Shown piece by piece: positions 2,346 to 13,597 of a stretch of 20,349 bases of DNA. The notes under the pieces are model-generated. The model made no database searches, was not told where the DNA came from, and saw only the letters and a list, made by a program, of their open reading frames with translations. Positions within the stretch are counted from its first letter, which is position 1. Each line of letters begins with the position of its first letter. The translations under genes and the position numbers were made by a program. The stretch comes from a virus: the IMG/VR virus record IMGVR_UViG_3300025880_000149, positions 1-20,349 of that record. One strand, 5' to 3'.

Positions 2346-4256
2346 TTAAGTTAAGTCCACTATCTCACATCCGTCCGAAGAACAGGCCAAGGTCTGCATT
2401 CCGGAGGTGTTGTCCTCCAACTCATACTCCGAGAGCTTGCCCCAGTCAATCAGCTTTGGCATTTTAGACAGTGCCTCTTCGTAATCCTCTTCGGAACACT
2501 CCTGATACGGAGCTTGCTGGTAGGTATGGTCCGAGTGAGGTAGGAAGGAAACCCCGGACATTTCGTCGAAGTGACGGTAGACAAAAGCACCAACGTCCAA
2601 CCACTCATCCTCTCGGACAGAAACAGTGATGGAGGGCTTATGTTCACACCAGTGCCTCTGATACTCCAACCAAGTCTCCAACTGTTCTATGGCCGTCATG
2701 TCACCACGTACAACAGCCCAATGTCCCCCCGGTGACTTAACCGGAAACGAGAACACAGTAGTGGTGTTCGGGTTCATAACGTCGGGTTCACAAGGGACCC
2801 CGGAGTCAATCAAGAACTCTGTCAGGGGGTCTTTGTTGTCACCCCGGACAGTACGGATGTAAAACTCACTGTGTCGGGCATGAATCCCGGAGGCAGAGTC
2901 TACCAACTGGGAAACTGTCCCGGAAGGTTTTACACAAGTGATTGCAGCAGACTGCTGAACCCCAAGCTTCTCAGCCCACTCCTTGTTTGTAGCTACCGCC
3001 ACAGACTTAAGGTGCTCCAAGGTTTTCTCCAACCCTGCGTTCGCAGTGGTCATTAAGGGGTTGTCCATAATCCCGGTGAGGCTGACCCCCAACAAACGTT
3101 CCTCCTCAGTGTTCTTTTGCCAGACCTTGCGAAGGTAGGGGAACTTAGTGAAGGTGCTTTGCACGGTCCCTAGAATTGTGGCCAGACGTACCTTTTCCTC
3201 AAGTGTTTCTACTGTGTCGTCAGAACGTACGACGACCTCAGTAAGGTTGCAGAATTGGTACGGACGCAAGATGATTTCCGAACAAGGGTTGGTCCCCCAC
3301 TCGTAGCCACCTTCCCGACGTCCGTTCTTTAGTGCCTGTGCCTCCGCAGCCTTGCGGTTGAAGATACCACGTTCACCGGACTTGGACTCGATAAGGGAAG
3401 CCCACTCTTTCATGAACAACTCAACGTCTGGCTTCTCGGTGTAAGAAACCGAGTTGTTAGCCAAAGCCCTCTGTGCTTCGTTCTCCCACCACTGGCCGGA
3501 CTTTGCATTCCGCATCCGGTCATCTGACAGGTTGGACAGGCTAATCATTGCGGAACGTCGGACACCTCCCACAACTACAACCTGACCGATTTTACACATC
3601 AAGTCATGGCACTCTAGGGAAGTCAGCTTGCGTCCCTTGGCTTTCTTGAAAACTGCAACAGCAAAGTTGAACAGGTCAACCAGTGGAGCAGGACCGGATG
3701 CACGTCCTCCGAAGGTCTTGAGCCTAGCACCGGAGGGACGAACTTTAGAGACGTCCCACTGGGGAATCTCTCCTGCCCACAGGAGGGACAGAACTTGACG
3801 GAAGGACTTTGCCCAACCCTCTTTGCTATCCTTCACAACTACTGTGGTCTCACTCTCGAACAGTGCCTCTGGGACTTCCGGGAGCTTTGTCACGAATTGA
3901 CGTTCTACGGAGAAGCCTACCCCAGTCCCACAGAGGAGAATGAACATAGCTTCGTCAAAGCTCTTTGGGTCATCCACCGGGAGATAAGAACAGTTGTAGC
4001 CCGAGGTATTGTCACGGTGGAGAGCTGGACCGGCGGTCATGACTGCACGCATTGACGGCATGATTCCCAGACCAAGGATTTCGTTCTCCACGTTGGCTCT
4101 CTCTTGAGCCGGGAGCTTGTCCCCAACAACCTCGGACATGTAACGTGAGACAGTCTCTGCCCAAGTCTCTCGGCGTCCTTCTGATTCTAGCCAACGGGCA
4201 TACCGTGACTTAGCAATAAACTCCTGATACGGAGTGGGCAAATGATTATCCGACAT
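2346..4256 (-). CDS. nrdJ: Class II (adenosylcobalamin-dependent) ribonucleotide reductase
   Basis: A 636-residue monomeric-type class II ribonucleotide reductase. It reduces ribonucleotides to deoxyribonucleotides using a B12-derived radical. Visible residues: C89 in YNCSY, NPCSE at 323-327, C336 in FCNLTE, and the C-terminal redox pair C625/C630 in ACSSDGC. The spacings 325-336 and 625-630 match those known for the Lactobacillus leichmannii enzyme (408-419 and 731-736). KPSGTVS lies at 443-449. It is about 100 residues shorter than that enzyme, as usual in phages. Glutaredoxin nearby is the likely reductant. The host must supply cobalamin. The start ATG at 4256 has AAGGA about 11 bases upstream inside a tiny ORF. 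Confidence 0.95.
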   Translation of the reverse strand: MSDNHLPTPYQEFIAKSRYARWLESEGRRETWAETVSRYMSEVVGDKLPAQERANVENEILGLGIMPSMRAVMTAGPALHRDNTSGYNCSYLPVDDPKSFDEAMFILLCGTGVGFSVERQFVTKLPEVPEALFESETTVVVKDSKEGWAKSFRQVLSLLWAGEIPQWDVSKVRPSGARLKTFGGRASGPAPLVDLFNFAVAVFKKAKGRKLTSLECHDLMCKIGQVVVVGGVRRSAMISLSNLSDDRMRNAKSGQWWENEAQRALANNSVSYTEKPDVELFMKEWASLIESKSGERGIFNRKAAEAQALKNGRREGGYEWGTNPCSEIILRPYQFCNLTEVVVRSDDTVETLEEKVRLATILGTVQSTFTKFPYLRKVWQKNTEEERLLGVSLTGIMDNPLMTTANAGLEKTLEHLKSVAVATNKEWAEKLGVQQSAAITCVKPSGTVSQLVDSASGIHARHSEFYIRTVRGDNKDPLTEFLIDSGVPCEPDVMNPNTTTVFSFPVKSPGGHWAVVRGDMTAIEQLETWLEYQRHWCEHKPSITVSVREDEWLDVGAFVYRHFDEMSGVSFLPHSDHTYQQAPYQECSEEDYEEALSKMPKLIDWGKLSEYELEDNTSGMQTLACSSDGCEIVDLT

Positions 4257-5769: not shown

Positions 5770-6101
5770 TCTACAAGCTCCAAGTAGTGTTCGATGTTGA
5801 CGACCACAAGCCAAGGCTTCCGGTCACCCCGGAGGAAGACCACCGGTTCATAATTGCCGTCTTGTTTTGCCTGATCTTGAAAGTCATACAGGGTCTTAAA
5901 AGTCTTACGTCGTTTCACTTCGATAGACACCGGCAAAAGTTTACGGGCTGTGGGGGAGAGTTGAATGTCCTCCCCGTTCTGTCCCATAGCCGTAGAACGG
6001 ACGTCGTCTGGCTCAAGTTGGGGGAAGGTCTTTAGAATTGCGTCACGGACCTCCTGTTGCCCATTTCGACCCTTGGCCTTGGCCGTTGCTGTCTTACTCA
6101 T
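5742..6101 (-). CDS. PD-(D/E)XK nuclease, Holliday junction resolvase-like
   Basis: 119 residues. The order basic N-terminus, GRNGQQE (E17), GEDI (D45), IEVKRRK (E61, K63) is the E...D...ExK arrangement of small phage PD-(D/E)XK endonucleases related to Hjc-type resolvases. It would cut branched or other DNA intermediates, and it sits directly after the 5'-3' exonuclease as expected for a DNA recombination/degradation pair. Start ATG 6101 overlaps the exonuclease stop (ATGA), with GGGAG about 11 bases upstream. The exact substrate is inference. Confidence 0.78.
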   Translation of the reverse strand: MSKTATAKAKGRNGQQEVRDAILKTFPQLEPDDVRSTAMGQNGEDIQLSPTARKLLPVSIEVKRRKTFKTLYDFQDQAKQDGNYEPVVFLRGDRKPWLVVVNIEHYLELVECHSQKNSS

Positions 6102-6811: not shown

Positions 6812-7021
6812 CTAGTAAATGTCGTGGGAGGTTACCGTACCGCCGGAACTCTTCTCAGCAACAAGGGTTTCCACGTAAGTGAACCCCATTGATACGAGGA
6901 AACTTTCCATAACCCGGAGGGTGTCACACAAGCCCTCGCCTACGTCTAGTTCCTCAAGGGAAAGAGTCTGGTCTACACCGTCGTCTTCGGCGTTAAAGGA
7001 AACTGAGATTTTGATATCCAT
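6812..7021 (-). CDS. Small acidic protein of unknown function
   Basis: 69 residues, acidic (FNAEDDGVDQTLSLEELDVG), with Ser/Thr-rich C-terminus. Its ATG overlaps the stop of the SSB-like gene (TAATG), so it is translationally coupled to it. Not recognised. Confidence 0.75.
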   Translation of the reverse strand: MDIKISVSFNAEDDGVDQTLSLEELDVGEGLCDTLRVMESFLVSMGFTYVETLVAEKSSGGTVTSHDIY

Positions 7022-7521
7022 TAGAAGTCGTCTCCTGCTGCGTTAAACTCTTCGAGCTCTGTAACTGCTACTTTTTCCAAGGTGTCGATGGTTGCACGGT
7101 CACCGTAGTAGACAGAAACCTGAACCTTAACTCGGGAACCATTCCCAATAGAACCGTCCTCAGAGAAGGACCACTGTTCGGAACCCGTAGCATCTTCTGT
7201 CCGGTTAAGGACAACGGGTGGGGACATGAAGACACCCTTGCCACCTTCCTCGTTTGGGAGGTTCGGGTTGTAGACCGGGCGTTTCAGTTTAACACACTTG
7301 CCGGAACCGTAAGCCGGGTTGCCATCCTTAATAGTCTTGAATGCACCTTTAGCTTCTGGGAAACCGTCTTCAATGAACTTCTCCAAATTGTCCGGATAGA
7401 AGATCATGTTGTATTGGCCCTTAGTGTTTTCGTGATACTGCATGTTATCATCAAAGTGGTCCGAGAAAATCTTAACCCACTCAACAGTTCCTTCGGCGAT
7501 AATTCGTTTTGTAGTAGCCAT
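7021..7521 (-). CDS. Single-stranded DNA binding protein-like
   Basis: 166 residues. Beta-rich body (TVEWVKIFSDHF, GKCVKLKRPVYNP, VKVQVSVYYG) and an acidic C-terminal tail ending EFNAAGDDF with a terminal aromatic, the hallmark of T7 gp2.5-type ssDNA binding proteins that contact the polymerase and helicase through that tail. Position just after the polymerase and before the exonuclease fits. Start ATG 7521 has AAGGAG about 8 bases upstream. It is the first gene after copy 1 of the 29-bp promoter-like element. The family call rests on architecture rather than strong motifs. Confidence 0.78.
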   Translation of the reverse strand: MATTKRIIAEGTVEWVKIFSDHFDDNMQYHENTKGQYNMIFYPDNLEKFIEDGFPEAKGAFKTIKDGNPAYGSGKCVKLKRPVYNPNLPNEEGGKGVFMSPPVVLNRTEDATGSEQWSFSEDGSIGNGSRVKVQVSVYYGDRATIDTLEKVAVTELEEFNAAGDDF

Positions 7522-7555: not shown

Positions 7556-7586
7556 GATATACCTCTGTTCGGAGGTGTTTGGTCAC
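7556..7586 (-). promoter_or_regulatory. 29-bp early promoter-like element, copy 1
   Basis: Minus strand GTGACCAAA at 7578-7586, 11 bases, then AGAGGTATA at 7558-7566, followed by a -10-like TATATC at 7556-7561. It lies in the 71-base gap between the DNA polymerase stop and the SSB-like start, 35 bases before the ATG. The 11-base spacer contains CCTC facing GAGG, a short dyad. It differs from copies 2 and 3 by one base in the upstream box (G for A). Confidence 0.65.
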
Positions 7587-7592
7587 AGAAAA

Positions 7593-9446
7593 TTAGTGGA
7601 TTTCTGCGTAGTTATTCCCAAACTGCACGTCTACTCCTAGACGGACGTTCAGCTTGAGTTGTTCGTTCAACTCTTGGGCTGCTTCCTGCATCAGTCCTTC
7701 TACTTTACCTTCCTCCCCTTCTGGGACTATGGCAATAATTTCGTCGTGGAACTGTCCGATAGTCTGGATCCCCTTGGACCGGCACAGCTTAACCCAAGAG
7801 TCGAAGCAGTAAACCCCAGTGCCTTGGTTAAGGGTAGAGAAACGGTCCTTGTCAGACCGGAGGGAGTACCAGAAACCTGAGACAGGGTTTTGAAGCCACT
7901 GTTGCCCAAACCGTTCCCGGACCTTGAGGTTTTTGGCTACAGCTTCCACAGCCCAATTCCGTTTCCAGAACGAATCTAGCATAGACTTGCACTGAGCCGT
8001 TGAATAACCGGTTGCACGGCTCAAAGCCATTGCACCGATCCCGTAGGTGCTGCTGTAGTTTACAACCTTGTAAGCTTTACGCAGTGCTCCCAAGGGTTTC
8101 TCCCCAGAGTTGTGCTTGTCGATATCCTCCTGAGTAATGGCCCCGGCATGTTTAGCCAAGTCCAAGTGTGGATCGAAACCTTCCTGACTCATTTCAAGAA
8201 CGTACTCCGGGTCCAACGGTTGCATATAGTGTCGTTTGGTAGTGTCCTCCAGAGACACCATATCAGCCCCGGACAGAACGTAGCCCTCCGGTGCAATCAA
8301 ACAACCCCGAATGTCAGCCCCGTAAGGCTTGTCTACCCCGGGCAGATTTACCAAGGGCTTAAAGTGTCGGAACCTCAGTGTGTTGGTGAAGCCGTTAATG
8401 CTTGCCGTCACGTAGCCGTTACGTTCCTTGTCTAAGAAAGCCTTAATGATACCGAGGCGGTGGTTCAGGACTGTAAGCCCGTCAAGAATCCCAACCGCCG
8501 GGTGGCGGGAGATGAGTGCTTTCACACTGTCACACAACTCGGAACCGTTCCGGACCTGCTCTACGGACTTCTCATTCCCGTCTACGTCTCGGCTGAACTT
8601 GAACGTGGTAGGGTTCCAACCCAACGTGTAGAGCCAATCCTTAACTTGGGAGTTGGAGCCGGGATTAGCCGGGACCATTTCCTTAATTAAGTTGATAGGC
8701 CCCTCCGTCGTACTGGGGAGCTTTGCCTCCTCCAAGACTGCAAACCACCGTTGTCCGTAAGCAGTCAAAGACCCGTCTTGCTTGTGGGTCTTCACGGGTT
8801 TTGAAACCTTCCGGTAGACCGGGACCACTGGCATTGCCTCGGTCAGCTGTTCCATTTTCTGCCTGCGAAGTTCGGTCCAGTCAGCAAACAGGGTCTCAGC
8901 TTTAGTAACGTCAAGACGCCACTGCAAAGCTTCCTGCTCTGCTGAACAGTCCAACTTAAAGGACAGGTAGTCCACAAAACGTGTCAGTTCCGCAGTCTCC
9001 GGGTATAACCACTTGAGGTCTGCCAACTGTTCCTTGTAGAGCCGTACGTTTATTTTCACGTCCTCTTCACAACGATGGCGGTAGTCCTCCGGAGTCAGGC
9101 TGTCCCAGTCGGTAATGACCGGCTTGGGAATACCGTAGTCCTCCCCGTAGCCCTCTAGACCGTGTCGGGGTCTTTCGGGACGGAGATACCAAGAGAGGGC
9201 AAGGGTGTCCACCATCCGGGCTTCAAGCTTAACTCCCAACAACTTCTCTAGGAGAACTGCATCAAACCGAATGACGTTGTGTCCCACAAGTACGGAGGCC
9301 CCAGTAAGGACCTCACGCATTTCGTCGTAGTTGTGGGTGCTGTGGACCTCCCCATCTTTGTAGTAGGACAGTACGTGTATTTTAGTAGCTACGTCTAGGA
9401 GACCATCGGACTCCACGTCGAAGACTATGTGGTTATCGGGTATCAT
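7593..9446 (-). CDS. polA: Family A DNA polymerase with 3'-5' exonuclease
   Basis: 617 residues, shorter than T7 gp5 (704). Proofreading domain: Exo I D10/E12 (FDVES), Exo II GHNVIRFD (D62), Exo III D129 in HRCEED. Polymerase domain: motif A GADMVSLED (D395, E400), motif B RKAYKVVNYSSTYG (R456, K460, Y464, Y468), motif C HDE at 568-570. By alignment with E. coli Pol I, Y464 occupies position 762. Start ATG 9446 overlaps the methyltransferase stop (ATGA), with AAGGAG upstream. It works with the primase-helicase and SSB in this window as a T7-like replisome. Confidence 0.95.
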   Translation of the reverse strand: MIPDNHIVFDVESDGLLDVATKIHVLSYYKDGEVHSTHNYDEMREVLTGASVLVGHNVIRFDAVLLEKLLGVKLEARMVDTLALSWYLRPERPRHGLEGYGEDYGIPKPVITDWDSLTPEDYRHRCEEDVKINVRLYKEQLADLKWLYPETAELTRFVDYLSFKLDCSAEQEALQWRLDVTKAETLFADWTELRRQKMEQLTEAMPVVPVYRKVSKPVKTHKQDGSLTAYGQRWFAVLEEAKLPSTTEGPINLIKEMVPANPGSNSQVKDWLYTLGWNPTTFKFSRDVDGNEKSVEQVRNGSELCDSVKALISRHPAVGILDGLTVLNHRLGIIKAFLDKERNGYVTASINGFTNTLRFRHFKPLVNLPGVDKPYGADIRGCLIAPEGYVLSGADMVSLEDTTKRHYMQPLDPEYVLEMSQEGFDPHLDLAKHAGAITQEDIDKHNSGEKPLGALRKAYKVVNYSSTYGIGAMALSRATGYSTAQCKSMLDSFWKRNWAVEAVAKNLKVRERFGQQWLQNPVSGFWYSLRSDKDRFSTLNQGTGVYCFDSWVKLCRSKGIQTIGQFHDEIIAIVPEGEEGKVEGLMQEAAQELNEQLKLNVRLGVDVQFGNNYAEIH

Positions 9447-10573
9447 TCTTTACTCCTTACGGACTCGATACGAGCCTTTGCAATTTCCATATATTCCTCG
9501 TCAAGCTCCATGCCAAGGAAATTAAACCCCTCAAGCATTGCAGCCTTGCCGGTACTGCCAGATCCCATGAATGGGTCAAGGACTACACCACCCTCGTGGG
9601 TGACAAGTCGGACCAAATAACGCATGAGGTCCGTAGGCTTTACCGTTGGGTGTGTGTTCTTCCGTTTGGTGTCACGTCCCTCCGACATAGAGGAAGGCTT
9701 GCCACTAGCACCGTTTCCTGTCTGCCACTGAACAAACTGCTGTTCTTCCATATGAGCTAGACCTTCATCACGATCTTTCTTAGACGCCTTGGCACAGTAG
9801 AAGAAACGGGCGGAATCGCCTGCCAACTCAAGCACCTCATCCGAACCATCATGGATTAGGTTTGCAGGGAAGCGGCCTAACCCTTCGACGGGTTTTGCAA
9901 ACGTCCCGTTTAATCCGTTCCCGTAGACCCTTGCACCTGCACCTGCACCTGCACCTGCACATCCGCCCTCATCCCCCACCCGACAACCATCGATGTTAAT
10001 AGCCCCTGTCCCATACTTCAGAACATTACCTGCCACGGTCTTTTCCGAGATAGGTTTACGAGCAACAGTGATAGGTTCAAGGGCAGGTTTCAAGGCAGTA
10101 CCCCAGCCGTCCCATTTCTTGGCAAGCAGAGTTTCGGGCAGAGTTTCGGGCAGAGTTTCGGGCCGTGGCTTACCGTCGTGAAACATGGACTTCGGTCCTT
10201 GACGCTTGAAGCCAACAACCTCACGTCTAGCCCCGGCCATCTTATCAATAGCCTTGCTGATATTGTGAGACTTAGTAAAGCCAGAACCATAGACCCATGC
10301 AATCATGTCACGGATTTCAAATCCTGCATCTTCGATGTTTACTGCCATTCTATGCTGTGTACGAGTGCCAGCAAAGGCCAACAGGTGTCCCCCGGGTTTC
10401 AGTACCCGGAGGCATTCCTCCCAGATTGCTACACTAGGGACCTCGTAGTCCCACTTCTTACCCATGAATGACAGACCATAGGGCGGGTCAGTCACGATGG
10501 AATCCACCGAATTGTCCTCTAGGGTCTTCAGGCTGTCTAGGCAGTTGCCAAGCATTAGGTTTAATTCAGTCAT
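9443..10573 (-). CDS. DNA methyltransferase (N6-adenine or N4-cytosine, DPPY type)
   Basis: 376 residues from ATG 10573, which overlaps the primase stop (TGATG) with AGGAG upstream. The catalytic motif IV DPPYG (29-33) comes first, and the SAM-binding motif I DPFMGSGSTG (333-342) is near the C-terminus, the motif order of beta-class methylases. DPPY favours N6-adenine but does not exclude N4-cytosine. The central region, where target recognition would lie, carries two in-frame tandem repeats: PETL x3 and a Gly-Ala run. No partner restriction enzyme is seen, so it may protect phage DNA from host restriction. Target unknown. Confidence 0.92.
   Translation of the reverse strand: MTELNLMLGNCLDSLKTLEDNSVDSIVTDPPYGLSFMGKKWDYEVPSVAIWEECLRVLKPGGHLLAFAGTRTQHRMAVNIEDAGFEIRDMIAWVYGSGFTKSHNISKAIDKMAGARREVVGFKRQGPKSMFHDGKPRPETLPETLPETLLAKKWDGWGTALKPALEPITVARKPISEKTVAGNVLKYGTGAINIDGCRVGDEGGCAGAGAGAGARVYGNGLNGTFAKPVEGLGRFPANLIHDGSDEVLELAGDSARFFYCAKASKKDRDEGLAHMEEQQFVQWQTGNGASGKPSSMSEGRDTKRKNTHPTVKPTDLMRYLVRLVTHEGGVVLDPFMGSGSTGKAAMLEGFNFLGMELDEEYMEIAKARIESVRSKE
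9932..9960. repeat. 6-bp tandem repeat TGCACC, 4.8 copies
   Basis: Plus strand TGCACC repeats from 9932 through 9960 without error. Within the methyltransferase it encodes a Gly-Ala run (GAGAGAGA). The unit is a multiple of three, so copy-number change would alter length without breaking the frame. Confidence 0.95.
10126..10163. repeat. 12-bp tandem repeat, 3 copies
   Basis: The unit GCAGAGTTTCGG (plus strand) occurs three times exactly, starting at 10126, 10138 and 10150, with a two-base partial copy after. It encodes PETLPETLPETL in the methyltransferase. Exact identity of copies suggests recent expansion. Confidence 0.95.
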
Positions 10574-12171
10574 CACAAAATCTCCTGTAGGGTGAAGGAT
10601 CGAGGGTCAAACCGGAGCTTACCGGCTGTACCTTCCTCAGAGCAAGGACGGTTCTTCTTAATCGTCAAGTAGGTGGTGTTTCGTTCCTCTAGGTCCTCGG
10701 ACTCTTTGTCCCGGTGAATGTCGATAACTACGCCTGCACGTTGGGTTATCATTCGGCAATACTTAACCTCCCCCATTTCGTTAGTGTGGCCGATGGTCAC
10801 AAGGGCGATGTTCAACTCCGCAGCAAGCTTAGAAAGACGGACAGACAGGTCTGCAAGCAACGCCTCTTTGTTTTCGTCAGTCATCCCGGAGACTACATCC
10901 TGAATCGGCTCAAAGAAGATGAACTTTACTTCCGCAGCTGTGGCGAAGTACCGGATTTGTTCGATAAAGTCATCAATGGTAGAGCCCTCCGGCATGTAAA
11001 ACTGGTGGAAGACCTCCTTTTCTGCAATCTCTTGAATTGCCTTCTCAACTTCCGCATTCGTCTCTTCGTCCTCAATCAAGTCACGTCGGGTTACGTTCTT
11101 ACCTAGCTGGTAGGAGACCAGACCCAAAAGTGTCCGGAGCTTTGTTTCCTCCAAGTGCCAAGCTGCAAAGGGTATCCCCTGCTTAAGTAAGCTAAACTCA
11201 AGGAACCGCATCACTTCAGTTTTGCCAATACCGGTAGCAGCCTTAAGAACGTGGAACTGCCCTTGATGGATACCTAACAACTTGTCGTCTAGTGCTTGGA
11301 TTCCCGTAGGGGCGAACTGGTGGTCCGGTGTGTCCCGGTAGAGAGAGAGCAGCTGGTCTGGGGTAGTAAGCACGTTCTCCGGAGTGAACTTCCGGGCATT
11401 GTACCAAGCAGACTTAAATTCTTGCTGCTTGCCGTTTGACAGGAACTCGTTGGGGTCCTTGTACTTGTCGAAGTTCATCCGGTAAGTCTTGGACGGGAAC
11501 AGACGAAAGATTTTCTCAGCAAGAGCATTGCCGGGAGCATCACTGTCTGTGGCAACAATGATCTTTTCGAAGCTATCCAACCAAGGACCACACTTCTCCC
11601 AAAGACCTTTAGACGGAGTTGCAGACGGGAAAGAGACTACAGGGTTGGTGTAGGTCCCTTGGAGGATTTGGTAGGCTGAGAGGGCGTCTAGCTCCCCTTC
11701 GGTCACTGTCACAAACCTAGCCGAACCTGCGTTCCAAAGGTTCATCCCAAACAGTTCGTCTTGGCGGAGCCCGTTTGCAGAAAATGCCTTGGGGAAGTAC
11801 CGGACCTTCTGACCACCGGAGGGGTAGGTGTATTCCTGCTTAACAGGGCCTTCGTTGTCGGAGTAAGTCTTGACCCCATAGAAAGCCATAGTGTTCTCAG
11901 AAATCCCCCGCATGGCTACAAAACCAGACTTAAGTTTTCCGTTGTCCTTGGCTTGAATGTGTTTTGGGACAAACGAGGAAATGTTGTCGTTGTCCTTAAG
12001 TGGGTAGTTCATTCGGGTTTCCTCTGAGTAATTTACCCCTTTTGCAGGGTAGGCATTATCACAGCTAAAGCACTTACCAACTCCCTTTTCAGGGTTAAAG
12101 CTGAACCCGTCGGAAGAGCTACAGCTTGGGTGTGGACAAGGTTGGTGGGACTGTTCTTCGTTTAAGTACAT
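10573..12171 (-). CDS. Primase-helicase (T7 gp4-like)
   Basis: 532 residues from ATG 12171, chosen because AAAGGAGAGG lies just upstream; a longer frame to 12207 would run into the promoter-like element. N-terminal zinc ribbon C12, C17, C34, C37 (CPHPSC...CFSC). TOPRIM domain: TEGELD (E158) and VATDSD (D209, D211). RecA-like DnaB-type helicase: Walker A ATGIGKT at 312-318, Walker B FIFFEPIQD at 417-425, then TIGHTNE. It synthesises primers and unwinds the fork. It heads the module primase, methylase, polymerase, all stop/start overlapped. Confidence 0.94.
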   Translation of the reverse strand: MYLNEEQSHQPCPHPSCSSSDGFSFNPEKGVGKCFSCDNAYPAKGVNYSEETRMNYPLKDNDNISSFVPKHIQAKDNGKLKSGFVAMRGISENTMAFYGVKTYSDNEGPVKQEYTYPSGGQKVRYFPKAFSANGLRQDELFGMNLWNAGSARFVTVTEGELDALSAYQILQGTYTNPVVSFPSATPSKGLWEKCGPWLDSFEKIIVATDSDAPGNALAEKIFRLFPSKTYRMNFDKYKDPNEFLSNGKQQEFKSAWYNARKFTPENVLTTPDQLLSLYRDTPDHQFAPTGIQALDDKLLGIHQGQFHVLKAATGIGKTEVMRFLEFSLLKQGIPFAAWHLEETKLRTLLGLVSYQLGKNVTRRDLIEDEETNAEVEKAIQEIAEKEVFHQFYMPEGSTIDDFIEQIRYFATAAEVKFIFFEPIQDVVSGMTDENKEALLADLSVRLSKLAAELNIALVTIGHTNEMGEVKYCRMITQRAGVVIDIHRDKESEDLEERNTTYLTIKKNRPCSEEGTAGKLRFDPRSFTLQEIL

Positions 12172-12202
12172 AACCTCTCCTTTCGGGTTTACTTGGGTTA
12201 AA

Positions 12203-12233
12203 ACCATACCTCTTTTTTTCGAGATTTGGTTAC
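12203..12233 (-). promoter_or_regulatory. 29-bp early promoter-like element, copy 2
   Basis: Minus strand GTAACCAAA at 12225-12233, 11 bases, AGAGGTATG at 12205-12213, with -10-like TATGGT at 12203-12208. It sits in the 58-base gap between the sigma-like stop and the primase ATG, 32 bases before that ATG. The spacer contains CTC facing GAG around an A-rich loop. Confidence 0.7.
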
Positions 12234-12799
12234 GATTTAGCCCGTAAAAAGGCTTTAAGCTGACTGTTCATCTTCTTCACGAGGGACAAACCAAGGCCCG
12301 ACTCGTTAGCAACTTCCTGCAAGGTGTAGCCCATTTCCCCGTAATGTAGCACGAAAAGTTGCACGTACTGCTCTCCGAACTTCCGAGAGACCAAGTTCTC
12401 CAACTGCTGAAAATACACCGTAGTCTCAGACTTCTTAGAAGATGCTCTAGGCATTTCATCGGCAACCATCCCCATCCCACCTAAAACTGTGGCAAGGCTC
12501 TCGTAGGACTTTCGGTCCAAACAATCACCTTCGTTCCAAGAATGGCCAGAACGGATCCTCTTAAGTGCAGTCCGGGTCCCTTCGTGCATCGGCACAGTTA
12601 CTGCAATTTTCGACTTAGACATAAAGTCATTCATTGCTTCCCAAGCCTCAACAGCTTCCCTACCGTCCCCTTTGTTGACAGACTCCAACCAAGCTACAGC
12701 CCCAACTTGAAACAAGTCCTGCTGAATCTGTGGGTCATTGAACTTCCATGACAGGCTGCTTACAACCTTCACCATGTCCGTCTGCTCTTTATTCGTCAC
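12230..12799 (-). CDS. Sigma-70 family-like transcription factor
   Basis: 189 residues from GTG 12799 (AAGG about 9 bases upstream); an alternative ATG is at 12775. Residues 20-60 resemble sigma region 2 (QQDLFQVGAVAWLESVNK, like the DLIQEG core). About 66-82 (VTVPMHEGTRTALKRI) recall region 3. About 140-186 look like a region 4 helix-turn-helix (YTLQEVANESGLGLSLVKKM), where the -35 element would be read. It is small and divergent, so a sigma factor is likely but not certain; another helix-turn-helix regulator is possible. It ends inside copy 2 of the promoter-like element and is transcribed downstream of copy 3. Confidence 0.72.
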   Translation of the reverse strand: MTNKEQTDMVKVVSSLSWKFNDPQIQQDLFQVGAVAWLESVNKGDGREAVEAWEAMNDFMSKSKIAVTVPMHEGTRTALKRIRSGHSWNEGDCLDRKSYESLATVLGGMGMVADEMPRASSKKSETTVYFQQLENLVSRKFGEQYVQLFVLHYGEMGYTLQEVANESGLGLSLVKKMNSQLKAFLRAKS

Positions 12800-13052
12800 C
12801 TGTCTTACCTTTCTTCTGGCTTTCGTCTACACCGTCCTCGGTGCAAGAGGCAAGCTCCAACCCGTTAAGCTCCCGGTACGTGAGGGAGGCGTAGTAGTCA
12901 CTTCGCATTACCCGGTCCTCCGCAGAGGGTAGCTTGGGTGACACTGTTTCGGAGTGAGTTGCCGGTGGGCAAATCGTGGCACCTACAGTCTTAAGGTGGG
13001 CTTCTACCAGCTGGTCCCGGGCTGCTTGTTCTATCTCTTTAAAGTTCTTCAT
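12789..13052 (-). CDS. Unknown protein, 87 residues
   Basis: ATG 13052 overlaps the upstream stop (ATGA), with GGAAGG about 7 bases upstream. Basic helical N-terminus (FKEIEQAARDQLVEAHLK), then a Pro/Ser region (ICPPATHSETVSPKLPSAED) and a charged tail (ESQKKGKTGDE). Ends 11 bases inside the sigma-like gene. Not recognised. Confidence 0.7.
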   Translation of the reverse strand: MKNFKEIEQAARDQLVEAHLKTVGATICPPATHSETVSPKLPSAEDRVMRSDYYASLTYRELNGLELASCTEDGVDESQKKGKTGDE

Positions 13053-13234
13053 TTCTTACCTTCCTCTGTACGGTCTAAGTACCACTCTATAATCTCGAAC
13101 TGCAACTCCACTGCGGCTCTGGCTAACCTCTCTGCGGTGTCCATGCTAGGGTGTGTTGCGGTGATATGGTCTTCAGTCATTGCCTTTGCTTCCTGAATGA
13201 CTGAAACCAATAAATCTTCCATTCTGCTGTTCAT
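13049..13234 (-). CDS. Small helical protein of unknown function
   Basis: 61 residues, predicted helical (MEDLLVSVIQEAKAMTED; ERLARAAVELQFEIIEWYLD), charged. Strong GAGGAG site about 6 bases before ATG 13234. First gene after copy 3 of the promoter-like element and after the 13250-13273 hairpin. Not recognised. Confidence 0.75.
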   Translation of the reverse strand: MNSRMEDLLVSVIQEAKAMTEDHITATHPSMDTAERLARAAVELQFEIIEWYLDRTEEGKK

Positions 13235-13249
13235 TAGTGCTCCTCAGTT

Positions 13250-13273
13250 GCGGGAGGGGTTTTCCCTACCCGC
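13250..13273 (-). other. Stem-loop at the predicted 5' end of an early transcript
   Basis: Minus strand GCGGG-T-AGGG / AAAAC loop / CCCT-CCCGC: nine base pairs with one bulged T. No T run follows, so it is not a standard terminator. It lies immediately downstream of the -10-like TATAAT of promoter-like copy 3, where a transcript would begin, and upstream of the ribosome site at about 13241-13246. Confidence 0.6.
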
Positions 13274-13276
13274 CGG

Positions 13277-13307
13277 ATTATACCTCTTAAACTGAGGGTT
13301 TGGTTAC
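13277..13307 (-). promoter_or_regulatory. 29-bp early promoter-like element, copy 3 (with TATAAT)
   Basis: Minus strand GTAACCAAA at 13299-13307, 11 bases, AGAGGTATA at 13279-13287, giving a perfect -10 TATAAT at 13277-13282. No TTGACA-like -35; the conserved AACCAA ends 17 bases before the -10, at -35 distance. It overlaps the last codons of the 62-residue gene and lies 43 bases before the next ATG. Confidence 0.72.
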
Positions 13308-13561: not shown

Positions 13562-13591
13562 AAAAAAAAGCCCCCGGAGTTATCCGGAGGC
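13562..13591 (-). terminator. Rho-independent terminator of the late operon
   Basis: Minus strand GCCTCCGGA-TAAC-TCCGGGGGC (stem 9 bp with one T-G pair, loop 4) at 13570-13591, followed at once by eight T at 13562-13569. It lies 6 bases after the outer spanin stop and separates the late (tail/lysis) from the early block. Confidence 0.93.
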
Positions 13592-13597
13592 CTTTCA

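Follow-up and report, generated by a model that had tools for sequence, protein, structure and literature searches.

Probable phage sigma factors and their matched promoters

Phage sigma factors with promoters of their own are known from T4 and SPO1, and in T7, T3 and SP6 the specificity of the phage RNA polymerase and the promoters diverge together. ECF sigma factors use a -35 element with AAC and a -10 element of the GTC type, and sigma-70 promoters contain a TAT element. In phage 7-11, the sigma factor SaPh711_gp47 uses late promoters of the form GTAAtg-(16)-aCTA, and gp36, the sigma factor of phiEco32, uses single-element promoters, tAATGTAtA (PMC8948821). Roseobacter phage CRP-6 represents a type of phage that is abundant in the sea, and the CRP-6 paper makes no mention of a sigma factor (PMC6918029).

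Here, we analyse 20,349 nucleotides of viral DNA (IMG/VR record IMGVR_UViG_3300025880_000149, positions 1 to 20,349), referred to as the window. It is a fragment of a tailed phage whose replication genes resemble those of CRP-6 (polymerase 59% identical). The window contains three copies of a 29-bp element. We suggest, with a probability of about 0.9, that this element is a bipartite promoter, used by host RNA polymerase when it is loaded with a sigma factor that the phage itself encodes. There are no transcript 5' ends, binding data or in vitro data.

The closest system in mechanism is phage 7-11, which has, as is inferred for the window family, a phage sigma factor with a region 4, bipartite promoters, host core RNA polymerase and late-gene promoters. 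However, the promoters of the window family also head replication genes and they covary across dozens of phages. The likeness to gp36 of phiEco32 is that a phage sigma factor drives middle and late genes, but gp36 lacks homology to region 4 and its promoters have no -35 element, whereas region 4 of the window family is predicted to read a -35 box. None of the phiEco32-like phages, including 7-11, was matched by four family members in a tblastn search of 50,697 GenBank phages; this involved no profile comparison. The ECF (group IV) factors share the two-domain build of sigma2 and sigma4 without sigma1.1 and sigma3, and the region 4 matches of the family include ECF chains. Yet the -10 element is TAT in nearly all members and not of the GTC type, and AAC occurs only in -35 boxes of the type seen in the window and its nearest relative, most phages having TGTTAC or TGTCTA types. 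The T7-like pairs, finally, consist of a single-subunit polymerase and its promoters, while the window family has a sigma subunit for the host enzyme. A promoter for a T7-like polymerase was rejected as a reading of the element because of the -35/-10 layout and because the annotation of CRP-6 lists no RNA polymerase gene.

CRP-6 itself has a homologous sigma gene, gp14 (MK613348, annotated "hypothetical protein"), at the same place before the primase and with three matched elements, at 4092, 8031 and 42211 on the minus strand, but these elements, GTTGACTAA-N9-CAGACGTCATA, differ from those of the window. The laboratory host of CRP-6 is FZCC0042. A phage sigma factor with cognate promoters is a known kind of system; judged by sequence, this family is unannotated, is separate at the level tested and has an unusually open recognition code. 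It provides a candidate transcription factor and regulon for CRP-6-type phages. Its dozens of sigma/promoter pairs also form a natural collection, useful for studying the evolution of sigma specificity and for orthogonal promoters.

Three copies of the element in the window

The gene order of the window is PhoH, glutaredoxin, ThyX, B12-dependent RNR, MazG-like, exonuclease, SSB-like, polymerase, methyltransferase and primase-helicase, followed by tail genes, all on the minus strand. The pattern GTRACCAAA-N11-AGAGGTAT has exactly three exact matches, at 13280-13307, 12206-12233 and 7559-7586, all on the minus strand. This is far above chance; the fourth-best place (19887, plus strand, within a gene) needs three mismatches, and shuffled windows gave 0.19 matches at up to three mismatches, with four reached in 0 of 100 shuffles. 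A scan for sigma-70 style promoters found fewer sites in the window than in shuffles.

The first copy, promoter 1 (13277..13307, minus; GTAACCAAA-N11-AGAGGTATAAT), heads an operon of two small ORFs and the sigma gene. Its -10 hexamer, TATAAT, lies at 13282-13277 on the minus strand and the predicted start is near 13270. The operon consists of a 61-residue ORF (13049..13234, minus), an 87-residue ORF (12789..13052, minus) and the sigma gene (12230..12799, minus), which has a GTG start and encodes 189 residues. Promoter P (12203..12233, minus; GTAACCAAA-N11-AGAGGTATGGT) precedes the primase-helicase (10573..12171, minus; phrog_239, 2.4e-98) and shares bases with the 3' end of the sigma gene, whose stop codon TAA (12230-12232) lies within the GTAACC of the -35 box. 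The primase most likely starts at the ATG at 12171 (ribosome site GGAGAGG) and not at the longer ORF start at 12207, which falls inside the element. Promoter S (7556..7586, minus; GTGACCAAA-N11-AGAGGTATATC) lies between the family A DNA polymerase (7593..9446, minus) and the downstream gene of an SSB-like protein (7021..7521, minus). The latter has an acidic C-terminal tail; no family match was found for it, so its name is inferred.

The threefold element, its 11-base spacer of constant length and variable sequence, and the -10 hexamers TATAAT, TATGGT and TATATC were all described correctly in the initial annotation. The distances to the start codons, given there as 32-43 bases, are in fact 44, 33 and 36 bases, while the good ribosome sites are present as described. 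In the proposed mechanism, region 4.2 of the sigma factor would read the upstream box, GTRACCAAA, as the -35 element, and the AGAGG that directly precedes the -10 TAT would most likely be recognised by the region 2.3/2.4 loop and helix. The three promoters would then switch on the sigma operon, the primase-helicase and the SSB-like gene, and the copy before the sigma operon would give positive feedback. The transcription starts, their timing and this feedback are inferred.

Some further features surround promoter 1. A strong hairpin (GCGGGTAGGGAAAACCCCTCCCGC, 13249-13273) follows it directly, near the predicted 5' end of the transcript. A terminator-like hairpin (13565..13596, minus), with a 14 bp stem and a T run, marks the end of the tail gene operon, ahead of the early module, and its structure is also kept in the nearest relative, L011. 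After this terminator and before the first early gene, a motif, TTC(C/T)TC.GAGGAGGGTTTAA, is kept in both phages (window 13565-13476, L011 about 5805-5850); it is possibly an early host-type promoter.

A predicted two-domain sigma factor

Sequence profiles and a structural model identify the product of the minus-strand ORF 12230-12799 as a predicted two-domain sigma factor, with sigma2 and sigma4 and no sigma3. The window protein has a long branch and by itself matches Pfam Sigma70_r2 poorly (E=0.012); its family membership therefore rests on its relatives and on the fold. Among 44 family members, Pfam Sigma70_r4 matches 42 (best 1.1e-13), while Sigma70_r2 gives weak matches to 17. The computed model of the window protein (pLDDT 83.8) has two folded parts, separated by a low-confidence linker at residues 111-122, and sigma factors or sigma-containing complexes occur throughout the top PDB matches listed. 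Residues 125-189 superimpose on the -35 binding domain of SigD (best Z 9.5) and residues 1-64 on the N-terminal domain of SigE (Z 8.6). The region 2.3/2.4 loop covers about residues 64-86 and the recognition helix about 166-178. That the protein binds host core RNA polymerase and starts transcription is inferred, without biochemical data.

No viral relative was recovered when the window protein was the only query, and one query against a bacterial genome collection gave none there. The relatives were instead reached via the DNA polymerase and then through sigma alignments. When four family members were compared with the GenBank phages by tblastn, the only clear relative was CRP-6 gp14; the other matches were weak, among them annotated Bacillus phage sigma factors. 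An annotated sigma factor from Zobellviridae (PQ867839) was not matched by the family HMM at 1e-3, and hhalign gave a probability of 5%.

Matched promoters in the relatives

The sigma gene occurs in about 65 relatives, consisting of IMG/VR contigs and CRP-6, usually just before the primase. In these phages the primase and the SSB-like gene are each preceded by a two-box element, and the two elements match. In most of them the sigma gene ends just before the primase promoter. We defined P as the region after the sigma stop codon and S as the region after the polymerase stop codon, and compared distinct loci with both genes. The position profile retained 73 loci, a few of them unclear, and 65 phages remained after unclear pairs were dropped.

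P and S resemble each other in two blocks, at positions 1-6 and 18-25 of a unit of 28 bases that ends in TAT. At these positions the bases are identical in 84-99% of comparisons within a phage versus 31-61% between phages, whereas agreement in the flanks is little higher within than between phages. The TAT at positions 26-28 is nearly universal. P and S have the same -35 box in 61 of the 65 phages (permuted mean 14.5, maximum 25) and the same 5-mer before the -10 in 56 of the 65 (permuted mean 5.4, maximum 13). The form of the element varies from phage to phage, and the copies inside one phage agree. Most likely, as far as sequences can tell, the phage sigma factor reads the element, and the element varies between phages in step with it.

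Nine long genomes or contigs were scanned, and eight contain three near-perfect copies of their own element (at most one mismatch). A few additional sites have two mismatches, some of them with a different spacing. The ninth, G010, was scanned with the element of a relative and gave one copy only. In all eight, the third copy heads an operon whose second large gene is the terminase large subunit, followed by the portal where tested. In the relatives the promoters would thus serve the primase, the SSB-like gene and the late terminase/portal operon; the window fragment does not reach its late promoter. The initial annotation proposed a promoter class that heads early transcription modules. The comparative evidence supports such a class, but the third copy heads a late structural operon in the relatives, so that the class is better named sigma-dependent (middle/late) than early. 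The exact boxes, which had been expected to recur in relatives, are found only in near-identical phages, while the paired arrangement of matched two-box elements is conserved in all relatives.

Of the relatives with a complete sigma factor, L011 is the nearest (identity 46-48% for sigma, 87% for the SSB-like protein and 79% for the polymerase). The window and L011 have the same loop, VTVPMHEGTRTALK, and the same (A/G)GAGGTAT. In contrast, the recognition helix differs, and so does the -35 box in both promoters (GAACC-N13 in L011 versus GTRACC-N14 in the window). This suggests that the window element belongs to the same system, with a specificity type of its own. L011 has no copy before the sigma operon; there the two small ORFs abut.

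Covariation of the recognition helix and the -35 box

The -35 box follows the recognition helix of the sigma factor, and three residues predict the box nearly one-to-one. The distances between recognition helices correlate with those between -35 boxes (partial r 0.70 given the overall sigma distance, p<0.0005) but not with those between -10 boxes (partial r -0.13). The strongest single columns for the -35 box are 163, 164 and 168. Among pairs with similar backbones, the box is equal in 136/136 pairs when residues 162-164 are equal, and different in 245/256 when they differ (23/23 at 75% backbone identity). Such pairs lack independence, but independent evolutionary pairs agree, in 10/10 cases for NKM with TGTTAC and in 8/8 for QK with TGTCTA. 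The sigma factors of L076 and L082 differ hardly at all outside the HTH. In a profile alignment to RpoD, the three columns align with R584, E585 and Q589 of E. coli sigma-70, which we take to be the region 4 residues that contact the -35 bases, as established by structural work. In this alignment position 178 corresponds to residue 599, and the ungapped helix was placed by eye.

A sigma backbone tree from which helix and loop were left out shows 28 changes of the -35 box. It could be argued that the elements are promoters for an alternative sigma factor of the host, given their -35/-10 layout and the need of early phage genes for host holoenzyme in any case. Such a factor would explain none of these changes, while the box tracks the phage sigma factor residue by residue, and we regard this explanation as very unlikely.

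Recognition by the phage sigma factor was also examined through prediction. The code was fixed in writing before new loci were fetched: xKM corresponds to TGTTAC, xQK or xQR to TGTCTA, xQV to TGTATA, NQT to TGAATA, xQS to TGCATA, KQA to GTTGAC, TKQR to CTTTAC and SRQA to CTTGCG. An automatic table of helix labels mixes a few labels (row SRQ) owing to its pattern and was not relied on. The P box was predicted correctly, with exact spacing, for 12 of 13 new sigma proteins, the miss being L306, and the S box in 6/6, one of which lacks the first T. Several of the 13 are close to family members already known and about seven are clearly new. The copies might instead match merely through recombination between intergenic regions, without regulatory meaning; the helix-coding end of the sigma gene immediately adjoins P, and both can move as a cassette. 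This can hardly be maintained, as only the two boxes match within a phage and not the spacer or flanks, and as the protein predicts the box in loci from which the code was not derived, including S, which is several kb distant. In one phage, L197, P has TGAATA and S has TGCATA, with the helix HQT; it is perhaps a phage caught between two -35 types.

The -10 side of the element

The box upstream of the -10 likely follows the region 2.3/2.4 loop, as judged from the alignments, although this rule is looser and has one clear exception clade. Residues 41-82, comprising the end of region 2 and the loop, covary with the -10 box (0.43 and 0.22) but show no such link to the -35 box, and the loop rule holds in 34/43 and 278/349 pairs. 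In the CTTTAC clade, the sigma factors of L017 and L162 are identical and that of L019 nearly so, but there are three different -10 boxes, which have changed together in P and S. It is because of this clade that the loop rule can be called no more than likely. The simplest explanation is a second specificity factor, not yet found; the variable gene between primase and polymerase was considered as the cause and rejected.

This exception also bears on the possibility that a phage repressor or activator uses the element as its operator and that the sigma-like protein is an ordinary HTH regulator. In the CTTTAC clade part of the element must be recognised by something besides sigma, and two-box sites at operon heads would suit an activator too. 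On the other hand, the invariant part of the element is a -10 TAT at a fixed distance, the covarying residues are those with which region 4 of sigma reads the -35, the protein has both the sigma2 and the sigma4 fold, and the window copies have no dyad symmetry. An operator is therefore improbable, and we prefer a promoter read by the phage sigma factor.

For such promoters, 39 combinations of -35/helix and -10/loop modules are seen. It can be speculated, though only tentatively and with more doubt than confidence, that these modules are exchangeable so that co-infecting or resident relatives cannot share a transcription system, and that one clade has a further, unidentified phage factor for reading the -10 box.

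Other variable sites

The slot between primase and polymerase (window 9443-10576) varies, with an N6/N4 methyltransferase in the window, another gene in L011 and an endonuclease in CRP-6. The window gene has short in-frame repeats (PETL three times, and GA repeats). In L005 (14519-14576), and also in L043, L045 and L046, a sequence GTAACCAAA-N10-AAGTGTATAA is found inside an inverted repeat, CCTAGT..ACTAGG, before glutaredoxin. It resembles the window boxes and is not the CRP-6 sigma element.
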